From contig SHXT01000003.1 in NCBI GenBank assembly GCA_009693175.1, forward strand, positions 1 through 64,000: a DNA stretch of 64,000 nt, written 5' to 3'. Position 1 is the stretch's first letter. Every line of letters begins with the position of its first letter. This document shows positions 1-14,564 of this stretch, in pieces. This DNA comes from Candidatus Methylopumilus sp. Its GTDB lineage: Bacteria; Pseudomonadota; Gammaproteobacteria; Burkholderiales; Methylophilaceae. A program made the translations under genes and the position numbers. A model generated the notes under the pieces. The model did no database searches and was not told where the DNA came from. It was given only the letters and a program-made list of their open reading frames with translations.

Positions 1-900
<900 letters not shown>

Positions 901-931: not shown

Positions 932-1828
932 ATGATTAAATCTCATCATCGTCCATCTAAGCTTTTCAATAAAGGCCCATCTCTTTTATCTAAATTATTT
1001 TTGCTCATAGTCATATCAACTATAATCATGGGCATTGATTTTCGTTTTCATTATTTAAAAAGCATACGAGAAACTTATAGCTTTTTATCAAAGCCTTTTT
1101 ATCAGATTTTTAACTTACCCATGAATATTTATACATTTACTACTAACCACTTTTCTAACCAATCTAATCTTATTCAAGAAAATGAAAGTCTCAAATCAGA
1201 AATCGATCATCTCAAAATTGATTTGCAACGTTTAGATTTTTTAAATCAAGAAAATAATCATTTAAAAACTATACTTGAGATTAAAAAATCTCAAAAATAT
1301 AAAACAGAAGCCGTTAATATTATTTACTCTCGCTTCGATCCTTTTAATCAAAAAATTATTATTGATGGTGGTCAAAATAAAAATTTTCAAGCAGGCCAAC
1401 CCGTGATAGATGCATTAGGCCTTGTTGGACAAATTAGTAGTGTTTTCTCTGAAATAAGTGAAGTTACTCTTATCATTGACAAAAAAATGTCTGTACCTAT
1501 ACAGGTACAAAGGAATGGATTAAGAGCAATCACTAATGGTAATGGTCAAAATGAAACGCTTGCGCTTTCATATTTACCTAATGGTATAGATATTATCAAA
1601 GGAGATATTTTGGAAACATCGGGAATTGATATGATCTATCCTGGAGGTATTTCAGTCGCAGAAGTTATAGAGGTTAATCAAAATCCAAAAATTCCTTTTA
1701 CAAAAATTATTTGTAAGCCTATTGCAACTGTTCACAAACATAAGCATATGCTTGTCATCAAAGCAATTAACACAGATAACAGCGCCATCAGCATTCGAGA
1801 TCCTTTAAAAAATGATCAAAAAAAATAA
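932..1828 (+). CDS. mreC: Rod shape-determining protein MreC
   Basis: Bitopic inner-membrane scaffold of the elongasome that binds PBP2 in the periplasm. The 298 residues show a short basic N-terminus, one membrane segment at about residues 18-37, a Glu/Leu/Asn-rich coiled coil at about 85-115, and the two-lobed beta domain typical of MreC (GQPVIDALGLVGQI and LPNGIDIIKGDILETSG stretches). Length and order (between mreB and mreD) are standard. The mreD start lies inside its 3' end with a 17-base overlap, which suggests translational coupling. Confidence 0.96.
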   Translation: MIKSHHRPSKLFNKGPSLLSKLFLLIVISTIIMGIDFRFHYLKSIRETYSFLSKPFYQIFNLPMNIYTFTTNHFSNQSNLIQENESLKSEIDHLKIDLQRLDFLNQENNHLKTILEIKKSQKYKTEAVNIIYSRFDPFNQKIIIDGGQNKNFQAGQPVIDALGLVGQISSVFSEISEVTLIIDKKMSVPIQVQRNGLRAITNGNGQNETLALSYLPNGIDIIKGDILETSGIDMIYPGGISVAEVIEVNQNPKIPFTKIICKPIATVHKHKHMLVIKAINTDNSAISIRDPLKNDQKK

Positions 1829-2267
1829 ACAATTTATTTCTTCATTATTTTTAGCGGGTATATTTAATTTAATTCAAATCAATATATTCAATATTGATTT
1901 AACGCCTGATTTTATTTTATTAACACTCATTTTTTGGCTTTTTAAAACCCCCAATAACATTTCTATCTCAACTTTTTGGGTAGTCGGCCTAAGCACTGAT
2001 GTATTTATGGGTGATTTAATGGGGCAATATGCACTGACTTATGCATGCTGTTATTTTATTGCCGAATATTTTATGCGTAGGATATTAATAAACAATAAAA
2101 ACCAACAATTATTTTATGTTTTCTTAATTTTCTTAAGCGCACAAATCATACTTTTAATCATTAATCTTATTCATAATGTTCGCTACCCGGGTTTGAGTTA
2201 TTTTTTCCAAAGTATCTCAGCAGCACTTATATGGCATGCTTTCTCCAAATCTAAATTTTTTAAATGA
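1812..2267 (+). CDS. mreD: Rod shape-determining protein MreD
   Basis: Small polytopic inner-membrane partner of MreC in the cell-elongation complex. The 151 residues are almost entirely hydrophobic, with about five predicted membrane segments and few recognisable motifs, as usual for the family. Identification rests on size, hydrophobicity and its place between mreC (17-base overlap) and the PBP2 gene. The stop codon sits within an AATGA context whose ATG is in the PBP2 frame but meets a TAG six codons later (see the PBP2 entry). Confidence 0.92.
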   Translation: MIKKNKQFISSLFLAGIFNLIQINIFNIDLTPDFILLTLIFWLFKTPNNISISTFWVVGLSTDVFMGDLMGQYALTYACCYFIAEYFMRRILINNKNQQLFYVFLIFLSAQIILLIINLIHNVRYPGLSYFFQSISAALIWHAFSKSKFFK

Positions 2268-2302
2268 GATCACTAAAATTCTAGATAGCCCTGAGGTTTT
2301 AT

Positions 2303-4201
2303 ATTAAAAATAGTCAAAATATCTACAGGTCTCAATACCTTTTTAAAAAAAGACTGGCATTTTTAACTGCCATTATATTTATCGCTTTCCTAGCAATCAT
2401 TGGACGCTTTTTTTATTTACAAATTTTTAAATTCAATTTTTATAGTCAATTATCTGAAAATAATCGCATCGCTTTAATCCCTAATATCCCTAATCGAGGG
2501 CTCATTCTCGATCGCAATGGAATCGTTATGGCGGATAACTATTTTGCATATAGCTTAGAAATTACGCCCTCTAAAACAAATGATCTAAGCAAAACGATTG
2601 ATCATTTAAAATCTATTATTGAAATTGGCACGATTGATTTAAGACGTTTCAAAAAAATACTTCAAGAAAGCTCTTCTCTTAATAGCGTGCCGATTAAAAC
2701 AAACCTTTCTGAAACTGAAGCCGCTCGTTTTTCTGCCAACAAATTTCAATTCGAAGGTGTAGAGATCAAATCAAGATTGTTTAGACGTTATCCTAAAGGT
2801 GCTTTTGCTTCTCATCTTATCGGTCATGTCAATCGCATCAACGAAGAAGATAAAGAAGATATTAGAAAGTTAGGCTGGGGGCAAAATTACAAAGGTACAG
2901 ACTCTATAGGCAAAGTAGGTATCGAGAAATATTATGAAGCCAAACTTCACGGCACTACTGGTTTTCAAGAAGTTGAGGTCGATGCTAATGGAAATTCAAT
3001 ACGTATCCTAAAAAGCGTGCCCTCTATTGAAGGTGATACTATTTCGTTATCCATTGATTCAAATTTACAAGAAATTGCTGAGAATGCTTTCGATAAATAT
3101 CGAGGTGCGCTTGTTGCGCTCAATCCAAAAAACGGTGAGGTATTAGCATTTGTAAGTCGACCTAATTTTAATCCCAATCAATTTGTGAATGGCATTGATA
3201 CAGACGAATGGAAAATACTTAATGAATCACTCAATAAGCCCATGCTTAATAGAGCAATCAACGGACTCTATCCCCCGGGCTCAACCATCAAGCCTTTTGT
3301 AGCATTAGCTGCACTTGAAAATAATATTCGTAAACCTCCTTTTAATATTAAAGATCCAGGATTTTTTATCCTACCTAACTCGGGTCATACTTATAAAGAT
3401 TGGAAGCCTGGGGGGCATGGTGTTGTTGATATGATGTTGGCCATCACTATATCATGTGACACATTCTTTTATGGTTTGGGTCTTGAATTAGGTATTAATA
3501 AATTATCTGAATTTTTATCTCAATTTGGTTTTGGGCAACTGACTCATATCGATACATTTGGTGAAAATTCAGGTCTATTACCTACACCTGAATGGAAGCA
3601 AAAAAGATTTAAGCAACCTTGGTATTTGGGTGAAACAGTTATTACAAGTATTGGTCAAGGTTATACACTTGTCACACCTATGCAATTGGCTCAAGCCGTG
3701 TCAACTTTAGCAAATAATGGTTTATCCTTACAACCAAGATTTATTAGCTCTATTAAGCATAATCAAACTGGAGAATTAGAAGTTTTCCAAAGTAAACCTA
3801 TGCAACAATTAAATCTTAAGCCTGAAAATTTAGCGCTTGTAAAAGAAGGTATGATGAATGTAACACAACCAGGCGGCACAGCAGCGGCAATAGGGGCCGG
3901 AGCGCCTTATAACATTGCAGCCAAAACAGGTACAGCGCAAGTTGTTGAGATGAAATATAATCAAAAATATAATCCTAATCAAATGAATGAAAGACATCGT
4001 GATCACGCACTTTTTATTGCTTATGCTCCCGCAGAAGATCCAACAATAGCATTAGCCATCATTGTAGAAAATGGCGGTCATGGTGGTTCAACTGCAGGGC
4101 CTATCGCAAAAAAACTTATGGATTATTACCTTCTTAAAAAAATACCTATTAATAAAGAAGCTATTGAAACAATTTCACTTGAACCTCAGTTTCATGATTA
4201 A
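2303..4201 (+). CDS. mrdA: Penicillin-binding protein 2 (PBP2), probable ATT start
   Basis: Peptidoglycan DD-transpeptidase of the elongasome, anchored in the inner membrane and working with RodA. The first in-frame ATG is at 2528, but the frame is open back to a TAG at 2282, and that upstream part encodes the membrane anchor (about residues 17-40) and the dimerisation-domain start. No ATG, GTG or TTG lies in frame between 2285 and 2527. An ATT at 2303 follows GAGG at 2293-2296 with a 6-base spacer, and its reading (IKNSQN...) lines up with the E. coli PBP2 N-terminus (MKLQNS...). That gives 632 residues, against 633 in E. coli. Catalytic motifs are STIK (Ser about 327), SCD (about 384) and KTGT (about 541). 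Identity is certain; the start codon is inferred. Confidence 0.9.
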   Translation: MKNSQNIYRSQYLFKKRLAFLTAIIFIAFLAIIGRFFYLQIFKFNFYSQLSENNRIALIPNIPNRGLILDRNGIVMADNYFAYSLEITPSKTNDLSKTIDHLKSIIEIGTIDLRRFKKILQESSSLNSVPIKTNLSETEAARFSANKFQFEGVEIKSRLFRRYPKGAFASHLIGHVNRINEEDKEDIRKLGWGQNYKGTDSIGKVGIEKYYEAKLHGTTGFQEVEVDANGNSIRILKSVPSIEGDTISLSIDSNLQEIAENAFDKYRGALVALNPKNGEVLAFVSRPNFNPNQFVNGIDTDEWKILNESLNKPMLNRAINGLYPPGSTIKPFVALAALENNIRKPPFNIKDPGFFILPNSGHTYKDWKPGGHGVVDMMLAITISCDTFFYGLGLELGINKLSEFLSQFGFGQLTHIDTFGENSGLLPTPEWKQKRFKQPWYLGETVITSIGQGYTLVTPMQLAQAVSTLANNGLSLQPRFISSIKHNQTGELEVFQSKPMQQLNLKPENLALVKEGMMNVTQPGGTAAAIGAGAPYNIAAKTGTAQVVEMKYNQKYNPNQMNERHRDHALFIAYAPAEDPTIALAIIVENGGHGGSTAGPIAKKLMDYYLLKKIPINKEAIETISLEPQFHD

Positions 4202-4213
4202 ACCAAAGAAGCC

Positions 4214-5311
4214 ATGTTAGAACGTTTAATCTTTCGCTTACAAAAAAATCTCGACCCCCCGCTTATGCTTTTTATTAGCACCACTTTGCTTATTGGCCTA
4301 TTTACACTTTATAGCGCATCGGGGAGAAATATTACTCTAGTCTTCAATCAGTTTATTTATATTGGTCTTGGTTTAATATTGCTTTGGCTTACAGCTCAAA
4401 TTCATCCAAAATTTTACGAAACATTAGCACTGCCTATTTATCTATTAGGTTTATGCCTATTGCTATGTGTCATGTTTTTCGGCGAATCAAGTCATGGTGC
4501 AAAACGATGGTTAAGTTTTGGGGCTTTAAAAATACAACCTTCAGAAATTATGCGTTTAACTGTGCCCATTGCTATGGCTTGGTATCTTTCTAAAAGGGAA
4601 GATAAGCGACATGCCATCGATTATTTCATCGCATCATTCTTTTTTATCTTGCCTGTGATACTCATCATTAATCAACCTGATCTTGGCACAAGCCTTTTAA
4701 TTACTGCATCAGGTTTTTATATTCTTTTCTTAGCCGGTTTAAATTGGAAATTTATTGCAGGTGGATGTATCGTTCTCTTTTCATTAACACCTATCATTTG
4801 GACGCATTTACATGATTATCAAAAAAACCGATTATTGATTTTATTGGATCCAAATCAAGACCCCTTAGGCTCAGGCTACCATACCATTCAGTCAAGCATT
4901 GCTATGGGATCAGGTGGGCTGATCGGAAAAGGTTGGCTGCATGGCACACAGAGTCAACTTAATTTTTTGCCTGAACGCACTACCGATTTTATTTTCGCAG
5001 TCTTTAGTGAAGAGTTTGGGGTTTTAGGTAATCTATTGCTCTTAAGTCTTTTTGCGCTAATCATTGGACGAAGCCTTCTTATCGCTTCACAAGCAAAAAA
5101 TACATTTACCCGTCTTTTAGCCGCCAATATCGGATTCACTTTCTCTACTTATGTCTTTATTAATATCGCAATGGTCAGTGGCATCATGCCCGTTGTAGGC
5201 GTTCCCCTGCCTTTAATTAGCTTTGGTGGCACATCAATGACCATTATTTTAATTAGCTTTGGTATATTAATGAGCGTGCATTCACATAAAGAACTTATAG
5301 GGTTTTCTTGA
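4214..5311 (+). CDS. mrdB: Peptidoglycan glycosyltransferase RodA
   Basis: SEDS-family glycan polymerase that works with PBP2 during elongation. The 365 residues contain about ten membrane segments and the SEDS signatures: HGAKRW after the third segment, QPDLGTS in the middle, and the C-terminal GVPLPLISFGGTS. Length is normal for the family (370 in E. coli). It follows mrdA after 12 bases and its TGA overlaps the ATG of rlpA (TGATG). Confidence 0.97.
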   Translation: MLERLIFRLQKNLDPPLMLFISTTLLIGLFTLYSASGRNITLVFNQFIYIGLGLILLWLTAQIHPKFYETLALPIYLLGLCLLLCVMFFGESSHGAKRWLSFGALKIQPSEIMRLTVPIAMAWYLSKREDKRHAIDYFIASFFFILPVILIINQPDLGTSLLITASGFYILFLAGLNWKFIAGGCIVLFSLTPIIWTHLHDYQKNRLLILLDPNQDPLGSGYHTIQSSIAMGSGGLIGKGWLHGTQSQLNFLPERTTDFIFAVFSEEFGVLGNLLLLSLFALIIGRSLLIASQAKNTFTRLLAANIGFTFSTYVFINIAMVSGIMPVVGVPLPLISFGGTSMTIILISFGILMSVHSHKELIGFS

Positions 5312-12362: not shown

Positions 12363-13619
12363 ATGGCTCAAACGTCATTTATTCATTTAAAAGAGGGGGG
12401 GCTCTTTGCCGAAAGTGTGTCACTTGAGACGATCGCAAATCAATTTGGAACGCCCACTTATGTGTATTCTAAAAATACACTGACACATACATTTGAATCT
12501 TTCAAAAAAGGTCTTATAGGTACTGATCATCTTATTTGTTTTGCAGTTAAAGCAAATTCTAATATCGCCATTCTCAATCTTTTTGCAAAGCTAGGTGCTG
12601 GTTTCGATATTGTTTCTGGCGGGGAACTTGAGCGCGTCATATATGCAGGCGGTGACCCAAAAAAAATTGTTTTTTCAGGCGTTGGCAAAACAAGCAAAGA
12701 AATTGAAGCGGGATTAAAAGCTAATATTTTATGTTTCAATATAGAATCTCGAAGTGAACTTCTTCGCATTAATCATATTGCAAAAAAACTTAAACAAAAA
12801 GCACCTATTTCGATTCGTGTAAATCCAGATGTTGATGCTAAAACACATCCTTATATTTCAACAGGACTAAAAGATAACAAATTTGGTGTAGATTTTAGTC
12901 ATGCACTCCCTCTTTATCTTGAAGCTTCAAACATGGATCATATTGATATTAAAGGTATTGATTGCCATATCGGCTCTCAAATTACAGAACTTAAGCCTTT
13001 TGTTGATGCGCTTGATCGTGTTCTATCACTTACAAATGAACTCAAAAAACATAAGATTCATTTAAGTCATATTGATATTGGTGGTGGCATTGGAATTTGT
13101 TATCAAAATGAATCCCCGCCTGATTTTGAAAAATATACAAAAGAAATTTTAAAAAAAATTAAAGATCTTAAAATCAAAATTATTTTTGAACCAGGCCGAG
13201 CGCTCGTAGGAAATTCAGGGGTACTTTTATCAAAAGTAGAGTACTTAAAACAAAATGGCGTGAAAAATTTTGCAATTATTGATGCCGCAATGAATGATTT
13301 GATGCGACCGGCTTTATATGATGCCTATCATGAAATTAAAGTTGTTCATGAAAGTGATGAAAAAGCCCAATCTTTTGATGTTGTTGGCCCTGTATGTGAA
13401 AGTGGTGATTTCATTGCAAAAAATCGTATGTTATCAATTAAGGAAAATGATCTTGTTTGTATTATGTCTGCCGGTGCCTACGGTATGAGTATGAGTTCAA
13501 ATTATAATTCACGAGGTCGTCCGTCCGAGATTATGGTTGATAACGATAAAATCTACGAAATACGGGCACGTGAAAAATCAAGTGATCTATTTAAACTTGA
13601 AAAAAAATTACCTGACTAA
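12363..13619 (+). CDS. lysA: Diaminopimelate decarboxylase LysA
   Basis: PLP enzyme converting meso-diaminopimelate to lysine. The 418-residue protein has the PLP lysine in FAVKANSN (Lys about 63), the glycine loop DIGGGIGI, the EPGRALVGNSG phosphate-binding segment and the CESGDFIAK active-site Cys. Length is normal. The stop overlaps the convergent purU stop by 4 bases. Confidence 0.97.
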   Translation: MAQTSFIHLKEGGLFAESVSLETIANQFGTPTYVYSKNTLTHTFESFKKGLIGTDHLICFAVKANSNIAILNLFAKLGAGFDIVSGGELERVIYAGGDPKKIVFSGVGKTSKEIEAGLKANILCFNIESRSELLRINHIAKKLKQKAPISIRVNPDVDAKTHPYISTGLKDNKFGVDFSHALPLYLEASNMDHIDIKGIDCHIGSQITELKPFVDALDRVLSLTNELKKHKIHLSHIDIGGGIGICYQNESPPDFEKYTKEILKKIKDLKIKIIFEPGRALVGNSGVLLSKVEYLKQNGVKNFAIIDAAMNDLMRPALYDAYHEIKVVHESDEKAQSFDVVGPVCESGDFIAKNRMLSIKENDLVCIMSAGAYGMSMSSNYNSRGRPSEIMVDNDKIYEIRAREKSSDLFKLEKKLPD

Positions 13620-14468
13620 TCAAAAATAACAGTTTTATTTGCATAAATGAGAATACGGCTCTCAATATGCCAACGCACTGCTCTTGATAAAACAATGCGC
13701 TCTAAATCCCTGCCTTTTTGAATTAAATCTTCTACTTGATCGCGATGTGAAATGCGATTGATATCTTGCTCAATAATAGGTCCTTCATCTAAAACTTCTG
13801 TCACATAGTGACTCGTTGCACTAATCAATTTAACACCTCGTTCAAATGCTCGATGATAAGGCTTTGCTCTAATAAAAGCAGGTAAAAAAGAATGGTGAAT
13901 GTTAATCACTTTATGTGGATAACGTTTAACAAAATTCTCACTTAAAATCTGCATATAACGAGCTAATACAATAAAGTCGACTTTATGCTCATCAAATAAT
14001 TTAAATTGTTTAGCTTTAGCTTCTCTTTTTTATCCTTTTCAACCAGAATATGAAAAAAAAGAATGCTGTAAAATTCTGCTAGTTTTTTGTATCTATGTGA
14101 TTGCTAATAATAAATGGGATATCACAGTGAAGCTCATTATTTTTATAACGATGAAGTAAGCCTGCTAAACAATGGTCATATTGGGAAACCATAATCGCCA
14201 TGCGAGGCTTGACTTTTGAAAGCTTAAGCTGCCATTCCATTTGATAAGTTTTAGCGATTGTTTCAAATGCTTTAGGGAAAGATGTTTCATCTACAGAAAA
14301 TTCTTGAAGATCCCATTCAACGCGCATAAGAAAAAGGCTATTTTCCGCGTCTTGATGTTGGTCTGCATGCAATATATTTGCATTATGTTTATATAAAAAA
14401 TCTGCGATTGATGCCACAATGCCTTTAGTATCTGGGCAAGTAATTAGTAATGTCGCTATATTTTTCAT
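13616..14468 (-). pseudogene. purU: Formyltetrahydrofolate deformylase PurU, two frameshifts
   Basis: PurU hydrolyses 10-formyl-THF to formate and THF. The N-terminal ACT domain and start of the catalytic domain (129 residues, 14468 to 14079) end at a TAG right after SNHIDTKN; the C-terminal part, with the intact NIHHSFLPAF catalytic motif, is open in another frame to 13616. Translating in three frames joins them: one base is missing in the A6 tract at 14083-14088 and one in the A6 tract at 14026-14031 (T6 on the + strand). Adding one A to each restores a continuous reading (SNHIDTKKLAEFYS, then KDKKREAKAKQFKLF) of about 284 residues, against 280 in E. coli. Either a young pseudogene or two homopolymer sequencing errors. 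Everything else about the gene looks normal. Confidence 0.88.
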
Positions 14469-14564
14469 AAAGATTGTTGATCTATCTTGAATAAAACGAA
14501 CTATACATGGACAATCAAGAATAAAATAATAAGTCGTGACGATCGAAAGTCAATTACATAATCT

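Follow-up and report, generated by a model that had tools for sequence, protein, structure and literature searches.

The infC gene, which encodes initiation factor IF3, starts with AUU, AUC or AUA (PMC9410913, PMC5472188). In Escherichia coli AUU starts are known for both infC and pcnB (PMC9410913), and the non-AUG start of E. coli infC is described as serving autoregulation (PMC9410913, PMC5472188). Two further examples come from Staphylococcus aureus, where cvfC1 (AUU) and ccpN (AUA) carry a strong Shine-Dalgarno (SD) sequence and give a yield below that of AUG in reporters (PMC13009471), and in Streptomyces the GTC start of sigR is reported to be repressed by IF3 (PMC5472188). A survey of closely related genomes recorded a switch from AUG to AUU in 1 of 61,358 ancestral AUG starts. 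In the same survey genes starting with GUG or UUG kept a stronger SD sequence, and switches in the SD sequence were not significantly linked to switches of the start codon (PMC5622118).

Here we analyse the mrdA gene, encoding the essential cell-wall enzyme penicillin-binding protein 2 (PBP2), in a stretch of 64,000 nucleotides, termed the window, from a species of Candidatus Methylopumilus. The best reading of our data is that this mrdA is a rare member of the known class of non-AUG starts. As in infC the start would be a near-cognate codon, but the non-AUG start of infC is common to the relatives whereas their mrdA starts with ATG. The E. coli pcnB gene has an AUU start, in contrast to pcnB in this genus, where the start is apparently ATG. 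With cvfC1 and ccpN of S. aureus mrdA shares the combination of a non-canonical start and a strong SD sequence; those starts are conserved and were mapped by ribosome profiling, whereas the AUU of mrdA is a predicted start, in a single one of the species examined (PMC13009471). Like sigR, mrdA would be an operon gene with a non-canonical start, although repression by IF3 is what has been shown for sigR (PMC5472188). The switches in the genome survey belong to the same evolutionary class of event as the change in mrdA, with the difference that there the codon itself becomes AUU, whereas in mrdA the old codon has become AGG and the start would move three codons downstream (PMC5622118).

Gene layout and identity of PBP2

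The genome is a 97% complete draft of 1.17 Mb in 35 contigs. The named genomes closest to it in our search belong to Candidatus Methylopumilus, Ca. M. universalis MMS-RIV-52 among them, and to other Methylophilaceae. The literature describes Ca. Methylopumilus as a lineage of fresh water with streamlined genomes (PMC10872708). The window opens inside mreB, identified by PF06723, and continues with mreC, mreD, mrdA and a rodA-family gene (Table 1).

Table 1. Features of the mreD-mrdA region and its neighbours, in window coordinates
Feature	Position	Strand	Basis or remark
mreC	932..1828	+	PF04085
mreD	1812..2267	+	TIGR03426, above cut-off
Mini-frame: ATG and five codons, then TAG	2264..2284	+	overlaps the mreD stop
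GAGGT ribosome-binding site, mutated start codon included (predicted)	2293..2297	+	match to the 16S tail
AGG at the site of the ancestral mrdA ATG	2294..2296	+	T>G at 2295
mrdA, penicillin-binding protein 2	2303..4201	+	632 aa if the start is ATT; TIGR03423
ATT, likeliest current start codon (inferred)	2303..2305	+	Shine-Dalgarno match CCUGAGGUU, -6.8 kcal/mol
First canonical in-frame ATG of mrdA, inside the protein	2528..2530	+	would give PBP2 without membrane anchor
rodA	4214..5311	+	PF01098 (FTSW_RODA_SPOVE); name rodA taken from adjoining mrdA

The mrdA product scores 754.6 bits with the model TIGR03423 (pbp2_mrdA), whose cut-off is 455, and contains the Pfam transpeptidase and dimerisation domains; the match to NF008061 (PRK10795) lies below its cut-off, at 593.9 of 962 bits. 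SxxK, SxD/N and KTG are the active-site motifs of penicillin-binding proteins, and all are intact here, as STIK at 327, SCD at 384 and KTG at 541. Identity to full-length homologues from the same genus is 74-83%. As model, motifs and neighbours all fit, we assign the protein to PBP2 (MrdA), encoded in a predicted mreBCD-mrdA-rodA operon. With its motifs intact, and with MreB, MreC, MreD and a RodA-family protein encoded by neighbouring genes, PBP2 should be needed. The codons of the membrane anchor (2303-2527) gave Ka values of 0.12-0.16 and Ks values from 1.4 to saturated against six relatives, which points to strong purifying selection; the branch is a long one, so these values do not date the loss of the ATG described below.

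Elsewhere in the window purU, the gene for formyltetrahydrofolate deformylase (13616-14549, minus strand), is split by two one-base deletions approximately 60 bases apart. A stop-free purU match above the model cut-off was present in 12 of the 15 other genomes of the genus; in G014 the gene is a fragment at the edge of a contig, and G007 and G001 gave a weak match only. We looked for a second intact purU in the window's own genome and saw none. The split gene is either a real pseudogene or the result of indel errors near A runs. The genes between 50661 and 58570 are matched in the corresponding stretch of G013 and have no counterpart in the syntenic regions of G005 and G004, and this block looks like a flexible island.

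A reading frame without a canonical start

Directly after a TAG at 2282-2284 the PBP2 frame opens at 2285 and runs to 4201 with the stop included, and the conservation of this open frame is a matter of direct observation. Its first ATG, GTG or TTG lies at 2528, and the membrane anchor is encoded upstream of that position. An earlier note on this DNA had claimed that the frame holds no canonical start between the TAG at 2282 and the ATG at 2528, and a codon scan of the frame confirmed it. Taking all frames together, the interval 2260-2560 contains only ATG 2264, TTG 2400, ATG 2517, ATG 2528 and TTG 2544. Three of these (TTG 2400, ATG 2517 and TTG 2544) are out of the PBP2 frame, and we can discount a canonical start in a different frame followed by a frameshift, as positions 2265-2399 hold no ATG, GTG or TTG in any frame.

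We then asked how common such an arrangement is. Among 108 mrdA loci, which are not all independent as some genomes are present in both collections, and from which L074 and L076 were left out because the N-terminus is not reached, a canonical in-frame codon is present upstream of the anchor in 107; the sole exception, L061, is cut by the edge of its contig and starts within the gene. The mrdA of the window truly lacks a canonical start, and this is unusual. A search of the literature available to us found no paper joining mrdA, PBP2, mreD and the start codon.

Apparent loss of the ancestral ATG

Fifteen other genomes of Candidatus Methylopumilus and kin were searched for mrdA. A homologue was found in 13, and the two genomes without a match are G001 (68% complete) and G006 (54% complete). 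All 13 homologues have ATG in one shared column, equivalent to window positions 2294-2296, where the window reads AGG; the loss of ATG from this column is directly visible in the alignment. Position 2295 is T in three complete, syntenic genomes and G in the window, and the start context is GATGTCT in the relatives versus GAGGTTT in the window. A C>T change at 2298 is a further difference near the lost start, and compared with the relatives the window has an upstream spacer reduced by a few bases, which appears as a gap.

The lost ATG lies nine bases, or three codons, upstream of ATT 2303. The ATT itself falls in the column of the fourth codon of the relatives, which reads ACT, ATA, TCT, ACC, ACA, AAA or ATT, and a conserved ATT start is ruled out by the ATG at the 2294 column. 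The earlier note had considered that related genomes might share either the ATT or a normal start; the ATT is not conserved, and a normal ATG nine bases upstream is, in 13 of 13 homologues. Its view of a settled, regulatory AUU start of the kind found in infC and pcnB is not supported, as the relatives start at the ATG in this column. Given ATG in the relatives and AGG in the window, the loss of AUG would appear to be confined, among the species examined, to this one, or else the base is wrong and the loss an assembly error.

A second T>G change is present 29 bases upstream, at 2266. Here TTA has become TGA (2265-2267), which ends mreD three codons early; the protein is three residues longer in relatives G013, G005 and G004. 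The same substitution creates ATG 2264, which is absent from this position in 13 of 13 relatives. It was correctly noted earlier that this ATG overlaps the mreD stop (ATGA) and is closed by a TAG after six codons. That it might be the true start of mrdA, with a false TAG behind it, is not supported, and we consider this candidate ruled out by the 13 relatives without ATG there. The mini-frame at 2264-2284 is probably coincidental.

Reliability of the assembly

This raised the question of whether the base at 2295 is right. It may have arisen as an error in sequencing or assembly, or reflect a minority variant of a metagenome bin, with PBP2 starting at ATG 2294 as in the relatives. A single base would suffice, the ATG is present in every one of the 13 genus homologues, and the genome is a draft assembly of 35 contigs. 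We compared 84 kb of one contig (C29), with the window inside these 84 kb, and all 78 kb of a second contig (C30) with stretches of three complete relatives. Reciprocal partners were found in the window's own genome for 151 of 160 reference frames of G013, a set that includes at least one likely spurious frame, opposite mreB (16-339, minus strand). The match covers at least 80% of the reference in 150 of the 151, the exception being purU.

Start codons could be compared for 141 genes. In 133 the start is canonical (ATG, TTG or GTG) at a column common to the three relatives, and in six another canonical codon lies within 25 codons of the conserved column. The remaining two are mrdA and the downstream fragment of the broken purU, so that mrdA alone, among the intact genes of the 141, has no canonical start close to the conserved column; this comparison places the mrdA column one codon off, at TTT, where the alignment of homologues gives AGG.

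Errors should leave a recognisable signature. In the 53 frames of the window there are 7473 single substitutions that would make a stop and 371 that would destroy a start; counting T>G changes only, these numbers fall to 1170 and 53. Random error would be expected to produce about 20 stops for each lost start, and few stops are seen; besides those in mreD and purU there are none in the 151 frames. A genome-wide error problem is unlikely on these grounds, and is not supported by frame coverage, substitution counts or gene ends. T>G accounts for 222 of the 4134 window-only changes across the window, with no excess, and the neighbourhood of the lost start also contains ordinary changes, namely the C>T at 2298 and the upstream gap, both of which argue against an error at 2295. 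No second copy of the species turned up when viral contigs were searched for exact matches.

A local error, for instance where coverage was poor, nevertheless competes seriously with a real loss, because mreD is the only frame of the 151 to stop three or more codons before its G013 counterpart, and it does so through another T>G, 29 bases from the one in mrdA. To this may be added purU, 11 kb away, with its two one-base deletions near A runs. Weighing both sides, we give an erroneous or minority base at 2295 a substantial probability, if one that falls well short of even.

The probable present start codon

If the base is taken as correct, which codon would start PBP2 now? SD energies were scored against the last ten bases of the 16S tail string matched in five relatives. 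The genus string, GGCTGGATCACCTCCTTT, was matched in five of the six genomes searched, and a tail ending CACCTCCTTT was likewise found in five of six; a search for the 16S tail in the window's own draft assembly did not find it. ATT 2303 has GAGGU five bases before the codon, a proper distance, and an SD duplex (Table 1) equalled in 2 of the 52 other window frames when these are scored from their first canonical start. By comparison the relatives' own mrdA ATG starts have SD energies between 0 and -3.7 kcal/mol. The third letter of GAGGU is the base that destroyed the old start (2295). In the predicted local RNA fold the SD sequence is mostly paired, which speaks against ready access by ribosomes, and the ATT itself is mostly open; no unusual fold was detected near the start (z -1.14).

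The match to the 16S tail is observed directly, and as an argument for ATT 2303 it is suggestive and not proof. An equally good site precedes 38 of 1351 (2.8%) in-frame ATT, ATC, ATA or CTG codons, and the chance of at least one such site among the four codons of these kinds at 2285-2330 is about 11%. ATA 2285, CTG 2291, AGG 2294 and ATC 2321 all scored zero, with no SD match. With the only ribosome site among them, ATT 2303 is the strongest of the near-cognate candidates around the ancestral start, and if the assembly base is right AUU 2303 is probably the codon now used. To this extent the start proposed in the earlier note stands, as do its count of 632 codons and the GAGG at 2293-2296, although not as a settled regulatory start. 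For E. coli PBP2 the note gives 633 residues.

We think it unlikely that another near-cognate codon (CTG 2291, ATA 2285 or AGG 2294) serves as the start, or that termination of mreD and re-initiation take the place of the SD sequence. CTG 2291 adjoins the old start and lies 23 bases from the mreD stop, compared with 35 for ATT 2303, yet none of the three codons has an SD match, and AGG departs from AUG in its second base, which makes for a poor near-cognate. It is slightly less probable again that mrdA is in a first step of decay, or that the protein is made only from ATG 2528 and lacks its anchor. The old start is indeed lost and ATG 2528 is the first canonical codon in frame, but this codon has a weak SD-like match (-3.3), its use would cost the protein the anchor, and among the 13 relatives the column reads ATG, TTG or TTA, with TTG or TTA in three. 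The 632 open codons, the 74-83% identity, the intact motifs and the presence of the rod operon partners also argue against decay.

A probable non-AUG start elsewhere in the genome

The E. coli precedents invoked in the earlier note, infC and pcnB, appear to hold in this genome for the first gene and not for the second. In infC (C30:77132-77338 region, L153) there is no ATG, GTG or TTG from the upstream stop to the conserved sequence. The codons here run AGG GGA TTT GTT ATC GCT CAA, the same in four other genus members that were read, and infC appears to start at the ATC behind AGGGGA. The start of pcnB is apparently ATG in the eight genus members viewed, the window's own genome included, and pcnB as a second non-AUG gene of this genome was not borne out.

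Discussion

We tentatively favour a real loss of AUG in this species, rescued by weak initiation at AUU, and put its probability at a little short of even. In this mechanism a T>G substitution would have turned the ancestral mrdA AUG into AGG, and the same substitution, together with a few neighbouring changes, would have created a GAGGU SD sequence five bases before an in-frame AUU. Ribosomes would start at this AUU with the ordinary initiator tRNA and with reduced efficiency, and the resulting PBP2 would be short of its first three cytoplasmic residues only. That the base is correct, that AUU is used and that expression is low are what we infer. In its favour is also the apparent ATC start of infC in the same genome. 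The coincidence of two T>G changes so close together counts against a real loss, since a local error would explain it; further points against are the great rarity of AUG-to-AUU switches in the genome survey and its lack of a significant link between SD and start switches (PMC5622118), the predicted pairing of the SD sequence, and the frameshifted purU on the same contig.

A more elaborate scheme, which we regard as the most improbable of those considered, would also explain the closeness of the two changes: ribosomes reaching the mreD UGA would re-initiate at AUG 2264, read six codons, terminate at UAG 2282, and be captured by GAGGU, and would in part supply an IF3-sensitive AUU of this essential gene of the elongasome, so that the dose of PBP2 would be tied to MreD translation and IF3, with the AUGA overlap and the AUU start both stemming from derived T>G changes of this species.

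Returning to a real loss with rescue at AUU, the implications depend on the base at 2295. If it is wrong, the locus is a caution about draft genomes. If it is right, gene finders limited to ATG, GTG and TTG would call a PBP2 that is missing the membrane anchor, and mrdA would be a natural example of an essential gene that survives the loss of its AUG through AUU, the altered start codon having been taken into the new ribosome site.
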